From: Chthonomonas calidirosea
GTDB taxonomy: Bacteria; Armatimonadota; Fimbriimonadia; Fimbriimonadales; Fimbriimonadaceae
Reading direction: 5' to 3'
NCBI GenBank assembly: GCA_945882415.1
Contig: CAMCWC010000007.1
Location: 62,001-126,000, forward strand
DNA: 64,000 nucleotides
Part shown: in pieces, positions 58,388 to 62,003 of the stretch
Layout of the letters: each line of letters begins with the position of its first letter
Numbering within the stretch: position 1 is the first letter of the stretch
Position numbers and translations under genes: made by a program
The notes under the pieces: generated by a model
What the model was told of the DNA's origin: nothing
Databases searched by the model: none
Seen by the model: only the letters and a program-made list of their open reading frames with translations

Positions 58388-59344
58388 ATGCCATACTCAG
58401 GCGTGGCCGTTTTGGAAGTCCGTGATCTCGAAGTTTCGTTCGGATCGACCCGCATTTTGCGTGGCGTTAGCTTCGATCTCATCGCGGGCGAGACCCTCGG
58501 CGTCGTTGGCGAGTCCGGCTGCGGGAAGTCCATGACCGCCTTCGCGCTGATGGGCATGCTTATTCCCCCGGGCCGAATCTCTGGCGGCTCCATCAAGCTC
58601 GATGGGCGCGAACTCGTCGGCTTGCCCGAGAAGGAACTCCGAAAAATCCGTGGCGAGCAGATCGCACTGGTCATGCAGGACCCGTTCACCAGCCTTAACC
58701 CGATGATGAAGGTGGGCCACCAAATCGGTGAATCGCTTGTTTTGCATCACGGAATGTCGAAAGATGCCGCCTTCAAGCGCGCTATTGAACTGCTCGACCA
58801 AGTAGGCGTCCCCGCTCCCGAAGCCTCTGCCAGCAAGTTCCCGCACCAACTTAGCGGCGGTCAGCGGCAACGAATCGTCATCGCGATGGCCTTTGCCTGT
58901 AAGCCGAAAGTCCTCCTTGCTGACGAACCCACCACCGCCCTCGACGTCACCCTCCAAGCGCAAATCCTCCGCCTCCTGCGCGACCTTCAAAAACAAGAAG
59001 GCGTGGCGGTCATGCTCGTGAGCCACGACATCGGCGCCATTGGCGCGGTCAGTCAGCGCATCGCCGTTTTCTATGCCGGCCAAATCGTTGAGCTCGGCAC
59101 CGCCCCCCAAGTCTTGCGCGAACCGACCATGCCGTACACCAAGGCTCTGCTAAGCGCGCTCCCGCGAGTCGGCCAAACCCGCCTCGAAACCATCTCCGGC
59201 TCCCCACCCGACTTCGCCACCCTCGGCCCCGAGTGCCCCTTCTCCCCCCGCTGCCCCCACCGCCACGACAAGTGCAGCGCCAACCCGCCCCTAACCGAAA
59301 TCGGCCAAGGCCACCAATCCGCCTGCTGGCTGAATATAAAGTAG
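58388..59344 (+). CDS. Peptide/nickel-type ABC transporter ATPase (DppD/OppD)
   Basis: 318 residues. Walker A GESGCGKSM (41-49), LVMQDPFTSLNPMMKVG (the Q-loop of this family), LSGGQRQRIVIAMA signature, LLADEPTTALDVT Walker B and VSHDIGA. The C-terminal oligopeptide-transport extension is present with its Cys-rich CPFSPRCPHRHDKC and later SACWL. It normally pairs with DppF and two permeases, none of which is here, so it is an orphan copy. A TACAAA is 8 nt upstream of the ATG; the gene ends in a repeat that can form a hairpin. Confidence 0.92.
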   Translation: MPYSGVAVLEVRDLEVSFGSTRILRGVSFDLIAGETLGVVGESGCGKSMTAFALMGMLIPPGRISGGSIKLDGRELVGLPEKELRKIRGEQIALVMQDPFTSLNPMMKVGHQIGESLVLHHGMSKDAAFKRAIELLDQVGVPAPEASASKFPHQLSGGQRQRIVIAMAFACKPKVLLADEPTTALDVTLQAQILRLLRDLQKQEGVAVMLVSHDIGAIGAVSQRIAVFYAGQIVELGTAPQVLREPTMPYTKALLSALPRVGQTRLETISGSPPDFATLGPECPFSPRCPHRHDKCSANPPLTEIGQGHQSACWLNIK

Positions 59345-59347
59345 TTT

Positions 59348-59421
59348 GAGCCCCCTCCTTTCGCCTATAGCGAGAGGAGGGGGTTGGGGGTGGAGAGCCG
59401 GCCAGAGGTAACTCGTAAATC
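59348..59421 (+). repeat. 74-bp repeat, copy 1 (upstream of DUF559 gene)
   Basis: This copy and that at 59804-59876 match over nearly their whole length. Each has an internal palindrome: CCCCCTCC...TCGC pairs with GCGA...GGAGGGGG around 3-5 nt. It ends in AGAGGTAACTCGTAAATC directly before the GTG start codon at 59422, so it carries the ribosome-binding site of the DUF559 gene. Confidence 0.92.
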
Positions 59422-59799
59422 GTGAAGAAGCTGCGACTCAACCGCTCCGACGAGGCAAAGTCTCAAGCCAGGAAACTCCGCTCAAACATGAGCGTCAGCG
59501 AGAAATGGTTTTGGGCCGCCGTGCGAAAAGACCTGCTCGGCTACCGCTTCCGCCGTCAAGTGGCCATCGGCCCTTACTTTCTAGACTTCTATGTTCCAAG
59601 CGCAAAGCTCTGCATAGAAATTGATGGTGAGCAGCATCTAGATCGAACTGAGCAAGACCAACGCCGAGATGCGTATCTGGCGGAGTTTGGAATCCTAACC
59701 CTCAGAATTCCATCCCTCGACCTCTTTCACGAAGATGAGGACCGCTACTCAGCCTGGATTCGGGAAGTAGAAAGAATCTGCCAAGAACGCAAGAAGTAG
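59422..59799 (+). CDS. DUF559 domain protein, VSR-like nuclease fold
   Basis: 125 residues from a GTG at 59422, directly after the repeat's end. DUF559 belongs to the PD-(D/E)XK/very-short-patch-repair-like nucleases. Glu27 (MSVSEKWFW), Asp55 (YFLDFYVP), Glu66 and Asp68 (CIEIDGEQH), and His72 form the likely active-site set. 'RRDAYLAEFGILTLRIP' is a standard family block. Function is not proved for most members. It is bracketed by direct repeats. Confidence 0.9.
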   Translation: MKKLRLNRSDEAKSQARKLRSNMSVSEKWFWAAVRKDLLGYRFRRQVAIGPYFLDFYVPSAKLCIEIDGEQHLDRTEQDQRRDAYLAEFGILTLRIPSLDLFHEDEDRYSAWIREVERICQERKK

Positions 59800-59803
59800 C
59801 CAA

Positions 59804-59876
59804 GAGCCCCCTCCTTTCGCCTCAAGCGAGAGGAGGGGGTTGGGGGTGGAGAGCCGTACAGAGGCACCTCGTAATC
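59804..59876 (+). repeat. 74-bp repeat, copy 2 (downstream of DUF559 gene)
   Basis: Same orientation as copy 1, differing at a few positions in the loop (CTATA versus CTCAA) and towards the end (GAGGCACCTCGTAATC against GAGGTAACTCGTAAATC). It starts 4 nt after the DUF559 stop. The palindrome can also act as a terminator. Confidence 0.92.
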
Positions 59877-60997: not shown

Positions 60998-61129
60998 TCA
61001 ATTCTCCCACCGAAGTTCAATCAAGAGCAAATCATGCGGACCAAATTCCCGAAACGAGATCCAGGAAGTTTCCTTCAAACGCCTAGCGTCAGGCACCCAG
61101 AGCGCCCCCACCGGGTAGCGTCTCCCCAT
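60998..61129 (-). CDS. Tiny ORF, doubtful
   Basis: 43 residues if started at the ATG at 61129, which overlaps the prpB start codon on the other strand. The C-terminal half (KETSWISFREFGPHDLLLIE) looks protein-like and it ends 3 nt before the next gene's GTG, as in an operon. It is too short to judge further. Confidence 0.3.
   Translation of the reverse strand: MGRRYPVGALWVPDARRLKETSWISFREFGPHDLLLIELRWEN
61116..61121 (+). promoter_or_regulatory. -10-like element for prpB, leaderless type
   Basis: TAGCGT ends 6 nt before the ATG at 61128. Confidence 0.4.
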
Positions 61130-62003
61130 GCTTCGCCCCTCCATCCCATCCCCCGGAACCGCCCTGCGCCAACAGTTCGCCCAAGGAACCGTCGTCCTGC
61201 CGGGCGTCTTTAACGGCATCAGCGCCCTCAGCGCGACCAAGGCTGGCGCTCATGCGCTCTACATCTCCGGCGCTGGCGTCACCAACGCCTATCTCGGAGT
61301 CCCGGATATTGCCCTAGCGAGCTTGAACGAGTTCGCCGCCCAAGCCGCCGCCATCACCCAAGTCGCCCCCGTCCCCGTTATCGCCGACGCTGACACGGGT
61401 TTCGGCGAAGCTTGGAACGTCGTGCGCACTGTCCTTGAAATGGAGCGCGCTGGCCTCGCCGGCATTCACCTTGAAGACCAAGTCTCACCAAAACGTTGCG
61501 GCCACCTCGACGGGAAAGCGGTCATCCCATCCGAACAGATGCAGGAGAAGATCGCCGCTGCCGTCAGTGCGAAGCGCGATCCCAACTTCGTCCTCATCGC
61601 TCGCACCGATGCTCGCGGAGTCGAAGGACTCGATGCGGCCGTAGCGAGAGCAAACCAGTACGTCGAAGCTGGTGCCGACGCCATCTTTCCTGAAGGCTTA
61701 ACCTCAATTGAGGAATTCAAAATCTTCCGAACCCAAGTTAAAGCTCCGCTCCTCGCGAACATGACCGAGTTCGGCAAAACACCCCTCATCTCCGTCGCCG
61801 AGTTTGAAGAGATGGGCTACGAGATGGTCATATTCCCGATGACCGCATTTCGTGTGATGCTGAAAGCGCTCGACGAGTCGTATGCACTCCTGATCGAACA
61901 CGGAACGCAGGCGGGTTTCCTAGACCGAATGCGGACCCGAGCCGAGCTGTACGCAACCTTGGATTACCCGCAATACGAGTCGGAAACGTACCGAGTCGGA
62001 TAG
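61128..62003 (+). CDS. prpB: Methylisocitrate lyase
   Basis: 291 residues, of the isocitrate-lyase superfamily. The active-site loop KRCGHLDG (122-129) carries the catalytic Cys124, and DADTGFG (87-93), Glu116 (HLED) and ARTDARG bind Mg and substrate. KRCGHL is the form typical for methylisocitrate lyase and related PEP-mutase-like enzymes. It splits 2-methylisocitrate to pyruvate and succinate, the last step of the methylcitrate cycle for propionyl-CoA. It precedes prpC by 39 nt. Confidence 0.9.
   Translation: MLRPSIPSPGTALRQQFAQGTVVLPGVFNGISALSATKAGAHALYISGAGVTNAYLGVPDIALASLNEFAAQAAAITQVAPVPVIADADTGFGEAWNVVRTVLEMERAGLAGIHLEDQVSPKRCGHLDGKAVIPSEQMQEKIAAAVSAKRDPNFVLIARTDARGVEGLDAAVARANQYVEAGADAIFPEGLTSIEEFKIFRTQVKAPLLANMTEFGKTPLISVAEFEEMGYEMVIFPMTAFRVMLKALDESYALLIEHGTQAGFLDRMRTRAELYATLDYPQYESETYRVG

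Follow-up and report, generated by a model that had tools for sequence, protein, structure and literature searches.

A DUF559 gene and the two hairpin-forming repeats that enclose it make up a unit which, as we hold with good confidence, belongs to a widespread two-part mobile system composed of repeats and a nuclease nested among them. DUF559 is a large protein family of unknown function. The unit lies in a window of 64 kb, the whole stretch of DNA analyzed (G000:C7:62001-126000, where G000 is the genome under study), and is best read as a REP/RAYT-like mobile system whose enzyme is an unrelated Vsr-type nuclease that would cut the repeats. A preliminary description of the locus had proposed a small mobile cassette, and this proposal is supported by gene-free copies of the repeat, by the absence of the unit in congeners, by a general and cognate pairing of gene and repeats, and by duplicated units that are bounded by repeats.

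Two triplex-type repeats enclose a DUF559 gene

The window carries two repeat copies of 71 nt each, 92% identical and in direct orientation, and as described previously these same-strand copies contain an internal palindrome and flank a 378-bp DUF559 gene (Table 1). Their length had been given as 74 bp; the direct pair is present, but the extra 3 bases do not match. Each copy consists of a strong hairpin, with palindrome arms of 14 bp (59351-59364/59370-59383 in repeat 1 and 59807-59820/59826-59839 in repeat 2), followed by TT and then by a G-rich tail. This tail mirrors the purine arm (GGAGGGGG-TT-GGGGGTGG), which creates a pyrimidine-purine-purine intrastrand-triplex motif that is perfect over 8 triads in both repeats, and only two such motifs occur in the 64 kb. 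The G-rich repeat core gave exactly two matches in the window against a chance expectation of none, and the + strand of the repeats, taken as single-stranded DNA, folded far better than shuffled sequences (z -5.5 and -3.5).

The enclosed ORF, running from a GTG at 59422 to the end of its stop codon at 59799, matched PF04480 (DUF559) with E=7.5e-25 and 87.4 bits (cut-off 20.6), and the MTES_1575 profile weakly. Position 59422 is the first usable start because an in-frame TAA (59416-59418) ends repeat 1; this first copy had been thought to reach the base before the GTG and stops instead at 59418. The second copy does begin 4 nt past the DUF559 stop, at 59804. It had also been claimed that the upstream copy supplies the ribosome-binding site of the gene: AGAGGT indeed lies within the repeat, at a rather long spacer of 12 nt from the GTG, and is at most a possible ribosome-binding site. 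The upstream neighbor was recognized as DppD/OppD-like by profile match, as expected, and the small minus-strand ORFs downstream of the unit had no Pfam or NCBIfam match. At loci L034, L040, L015 and L271, the repeat itself encodes the nuclease C-terminus and stop (endings ...SPSPQPSP, ...PCPSPPEGRGEF and similar).

Table 1. Features of the repeat-DUF559 unit and its neighbors (positions in the window).
Feature	Position	Strand	Basis
DppD/OppD-like ABC ATPase, upstream neighbor, site landmark outside the unit	58388..59344	+	ORF list, profiles, congeners
Repeat copy 1, hairpin and G-rich tail	59348..59418	+	repeat comparison, folding, triplex-motif scan
YRR motif of repeat 1	Y arm 59351-59358, R arm 59376-59383, loop TT, third strand 59386-59393	+	triplex scan
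AGAGGT, possible ribosome-binding site inside repeat 1	59404..59409	+	sequence
DUF559 gene, Vsr/EDxHD-like PD-(D/E)XK nuclease, 125 aa	59422..59799	+	Pfam, alignment, structure model
Repeat copy 2, same orientation as copy 1	59804..59874	+	repeat comparison, folding, triplex-motif scan
YRR motif of repeat 2	Y arm 59807-59814, R arm 59832-59839, third strand 59842-59849	+	triplex scan
prpB methylisocitrate lyase, site landmark	61128..62003	+	profiles, congeners

The unit in the host genome and its congeners

G000 contains a single DUF559 gene, and the whole-genome search for the repeat alone that had been suggested recovered six further copies without DUF559 outside the unit. In the sister species G014 this site is occupied by the same unit, 88-90% identical. 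The suggested search for an empty site in close relatives was equally productive: of the 18 other congeners whose site was readable, 17 have no such unit after dppD, and in one more the region extends beyond the contig end. In G011 and G017, prpB directly follows dppD and the dppD-prpB site holds no repeat at all; G008 has a lone hairpin after dppD. The window unit was either gained within the genus or lost elsewhere in it. Since it is shared vertically with G014 at ordinary divergence, it is an old rather than a recent insertion, probably established between dppD and prpB before the G000/G014 split.

The lone repeats of G000 tend to sit at synteny breaks relative to G014, and no clean empty sites were found for the lone repeats of these two genomes, whose copies lie at synteny breakpoints and are not clean insertions. 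Matches to the G014 repeat region were also observed at the ends of G000 draft contigs (C3:155, C12:143, C21:143 and C33:221), so that the repeats probably broke the assembly and their true copy number may be higher.

Cognate repeat pairs accompany DUF559 across bacteria

In a set of 61 genomes (G000 and 60 relatives), DUF559 was detected in 39, with up to 11 copies per genome, and a repeat pair spanned the gene at 61 of the 79 loci with adequate flanks, inverted in 40 cases and direct in 21. A second set, which partly overlaps the first for Fimbriimonadia, comprised 80 DUF559 loci from genome_contigs, mostly of Alphaproteobacteria and Armatimonadota, 71 of them testable. Here a matching pair was found at 50/71 DUF559 genes versus 10/290 other ORFs in the same loci (Fisher 2.9e-34), and at 3/94 control ORFs that had free intergenic space to either side. 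By clade, the pair was present at 16/18 Armatimonadota-type, 30/48 alphaproteobacterial and 4/5 other DUF559 genes. About a quarter of the loci had no detectable pair (18/79 among relatives, 21/71 in the second set). Named records with repeats at DUF559 include Neisseria gonorrhoeae, Azospirillum lipoferum, Sinorhizobium meliloti, Picosynechococcus, Sphingomonas, Deinococcus and Synechocystis. The pairing is general: it is seen in many bacterial phyla and extends to E. coli. We found no paper linking DUF559 or ycjD to repeats in the literature outside subscription journals, bioRxiv and preprint servers.

Different DUF559 genes of one genome are accompanied by different repeats, as is the case for three genes in G008 and two in G026. 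When the upstream and downstream repeats of each unit were compared, they matched each other in 43/60 DUF559 units, versus 25/264 matches to other units of the same genome (p=2.6e-22). Judged by these matches, each DUF559 has its own repeat family and the pairing is cognate. Relative genomes hold up to 65 hairpins, and all six genomes with at least 20 carry at least 2 DUF559 genes; the correlation between hairpin and DUF559 counts over the 61 genomes is weak (Spearman 0.27, p=0.04) and the pattern fits only some repeat families.

It is to be noted that several database records are oddly classified. IMG/VR "viral" contigs of 4-10 kb with DUF559 (L068-L083) align over kilobases with Caulobacter chromosomal loci (L117, L118, L135 and L155) and are likely misclassified as viral, and the PLSDB "plasmid" records NZ_CP119142, NZ_CP141089 and CP090106 look like complete chromosomes (2.2, 4.9 and 3.7 Mb).

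Duplicated units end at the repeats

G033 contains two units on different contigs that are 96.7% identical over 549 nt within unrelated flanks, the homology extending from the first base of the upstream repeat to the end of the downstream one, and the proteins of two units in G035 are 98.4% identical. Recently duplicated units are thus delimited exactly by the repeats. No clear target-site duplication was seen at the two G033 units, and the loci compared yielded no high-identity pair of an occupied and a repeat-free site with target duplication.

On a plasmid of Synechocystis sp. B12 (L264:1390-1850), a DUF559 unit sits inside a BREX-type pglX methyltransferase gene. The pglX-type homologue of Pseudanabaena galeata reads through as a single open frame and has just a repeat dimer at the codon of the Synechocystis unit; it has a second in-frame repeat dimer elsewhere that is missing in Synechocystis. 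A Sphingomonas plasmid carries a unit between sufB and sufC, and a Sinorhizobium unit has the order repeat dimer, DUF559, repeat dimer, with the ends TGCCCCTCACCC/GGGTGAGGGGCA. The repeat dimers of S. meliloti pSymB were also considered as a case of an empty site and discarded, the difference between L305 and L302 being a clean 50-bp loss of one hairpin of the dimer.

The E. coli DUF559 gene ycjD and BoxC repeats

We know of no agent that spreads the BoxC/PIT/TM repeats. Their consensus in E. coli is CCCTCNCCC-N3-6-GGGNGAGGG-N3-GGGNGAGGG, and the G/C-rich TM motif occurs in more than 260 genomes (Holder et al. 2015, PMC4666352). The same study describes these loci as unstable, reports no association with mobile elements and mentions neither DUF559, ycjD nor any endonuclease, and it cites earlier work according to which BoxC/PIT elements have no promoter or terminator activity (PMC4666352). 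The link to DUF559 is new here. Triplex-type motifs were found at 7 of 8 named DUF559 loci, with such repeats lying alongside the gene in both N. gonorrhoeae and E. coli. In alphaproteobacterial repeats the loop contains another hairpin, and a test of their third-strand order was not discriminating (47/53 mirror versus 44/53 direct), so we limit the triplex claim to short-loop repeats.

Of 5,426 E. coli genomes, about 3,360 carry ycjD and about 2,000 lack it. In sampled genomes, the repeats occupied 10-24 places (median 15) when ycjD was present and 2-12 (median 4) when it was not, a comparison confounded by clonal descent. Flanked by sapF and fabI, the gene (L267:1430-1830, and L271) has repeats on a single side and continues downstream into BoxC-type copies; the K-12 ycjD-fabI repeat CCCTCGCCC CTCTG GGGAGAGGG TTA GGGTGAGGG fits the published TM_ECO consensus. 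At least some genomes without ycjD have an efflux cluster after sapF instead. Two E. coli sites were rejected as empty/occupied pairs: the alleles of the sapF-ycjD site differ by a larger rearrangement, and the tusA-zntA copy is nearly fixed in the species, the longer O145 allele holding an unrelated ORF.

A Vsr-type nuclease fold

The AlphaFold2 model of the window DUF559 protein (pLDDT 90.4) was compared with known structures and came closest to NGO0050 of N. gonorrhoeae (3hrl, Z 15.2), then to the homing endonuclease I-Bth0305I (3r3p, Z 11.7 over 95 residues), its closest non-DUF559 fold, and to Vsr (1cw0, Z 10.0). A sequence profile search agreed for 3hrl (E 9.3e-26) and found 3r3p weakly (E 0.0025). 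Residues E27, D55, E66, D68 and H72, among others, are invariant in 45 DUF559 sequences. The predicted fold is of the Vsr/I-Bth0305I homing endonuclease type, which bears out the earlier suggestion of a VSR-like nuclease. Previous work had placed YcjD near Vsr in the PD-(D/E)XK superfamily (PMC1189080), and the Caulobacter DUF559 protein VsrA, reported as a putative mismatch-repair nuclease, causes DNA damage responses in cells without a cytosine methyltransferase (PMC12907096). A role in a defense system was considered and set aside, as PADLOC matches were only weak and probably due to the shared nuclease fold.

Discussion

We propose a system whose first part is a short repeat in which a C/G-rich hairpin is joined to a G-rich tail; gene-free copies of it, from several to dozens in each genome, stand alone or form inverted dimers, and the window form has the intrastrand-triplex motif of the BoxC/PIT/TM kind. 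The second part is a nuclease gene of the DUF559 family, enclosed by copies of the repeat family that belongs to it. The nuclease may recognize its cognate repeat, perhaps as a hairpin or triplex when single-stranded at replication, and cut it; repair or replication from another copy would then spread the repeats and, less often, the gene, in the manner of RAYT/REP or of a homing endonuclease, each genome keeping lineage-specific repeat/nuclease pairs. The recurrence of the pairing across phyla suggests that the DUF559 family spreads the BoxC repeats and their kin, whose origin is so far unexplained. Whether this amounts to a new class of mobile elements, with triplex/hairpin repeats spread by dedicated Vsr-type DUF559 nucleases in many phyla and the BoxC/PIT/TM repeats of E. 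coli, cyanobacteria and rhizobia as gene-free, non-autonomous members, we regard as evenly balanced.

A homing-like variant is a tentative alternative and the less likely one: a free-standing DUF559 homing endonuclease would cut gene-free cognate repeats and be copied into them by gene conversion, the repeats having arisen and spread otherwise. I-Bth0305I is among both the profile and the fold neighbors, gene-free copies outnumber genes, duplicated units end at repeats as conversion tracts do, and the Synechocystis/Pseudanabaena pair, with a repeat dimer in one where the other has repeat-DUF559-repeat, is an indirect hint that slightly favors homing. However, this variant explains neither the spread of repeats to new sites nor their lower number in ycjD-less E. 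coli, and the dppD-prpB sites of G011 and G017 are devoid of repeats; these repeat-free sites and the E. coli copy numbers fit repeat dissemination. An ordinary Vsr-like mismatch-repair nuclease with incidental repeats is improbable: the Vsr fold and the damage responses of Caulobacter VsrA upon loss of cytosine methylation (PMC12907096) would suit it, but pairs are found at 70-77% of DUF559 genes versus 3% of controls, and a repair gene needs neither its own repeat family nor duplication bounded by repeats.

We give very little credence to the repeats being REPs mobilized by RAYT (Y1) transposases with DUF559 as a passenger. Y1_Tnp (RAYT, PF01797) genes are indeed present in 49/61 genomes, including two in G000, but in a positive control with the same method 18/21 of them had paired repeats of other families, and only 1/64 RAYT/DUF559 pairs from the same genomes shared a repeat, so that RAYT/REP and DUF559/repeat look like two separate systems. 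A second REP system in G000 consists of a RAYT transposase gene (G000:C3:56824-57159) and the inverted GGTAGCCAGGC-type repeats that belong to it. The window gene has no Y1_Tnp match and so falls outside the RAYT enzyme definition of HUH plus a catalytic tyrosine, and neither window repeat contains GTAG, the mark (GTAG or GGAG) found beside REP hairpins, the tail being TTGGGGGTGGAG. CGTC-tagged REPs, for which no transposase was reported (PMC3733652), were considered as the same class and kept apart, their stems and tails being different. Equally far-fetched is the idea that the repeats serve the small gene as transcription terminators or as hairpins of its mRNA: strong hairpins do lie near both gene ends, but the repeats recur without the gene and also inside coding sequence, and BoxC/PIT elements were reported to lack promoter or terminator activity, as cited above.

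The preferred reading, that of a repeat family spread by its own DUF559 nuclease, would offer a candidate explanation both for DUF559 and for BoxC-type repeats that is directly testable in E. coli K-12 with ycjD and BoxC. If true, a REP-like system has been built on an enzyme unrelated to the HUH transposases. The likeness to REP/RAYT systems (TnpA-REP, REPIN, "REPtron") lies in a single- to few-copy nuclease gene between short palindromic repeats, in the occurrence of these repeats without the gene, as single copies or inverted dimers, and in lineage-specific nuclease/repeat pairs. The two differ in their enzymes, a Vsr-type PD-(D/E)XK nuclease for DUF559 versus a HUH/Y1 tyrosine transposase for RAYT, and in their repeats, with a GTAG tag in REPs and a G-rich triplex-type tail in the window. 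The EDxHD homing endonuclease I-Bth0305I has a related catalytic domain, whereas the DUF559 unit has no intron or intein, encodes a much smaller protein without extra DNA-binding modules, and sits in repeats rather than in one conserved host gene. Vsr and Caulobacter VsrA are similar in fold; unlike them, the window unit has no adjacent cytosine methyltransferase and is flanked by cognate repeats. NGO0050 and E. coli YcjD are members of the DUF559 family itself. Finally, both window repeats have the YRR triplex architecture of BoxC/PIT/TM repeats, with a first loop of 17 nt, mostly base-paired, between 8-nt arms as opposed to 1-6 nt (PMC4666352), and the G/C-rich TM class and the short-loop DUF559 repeats share one common architecture.
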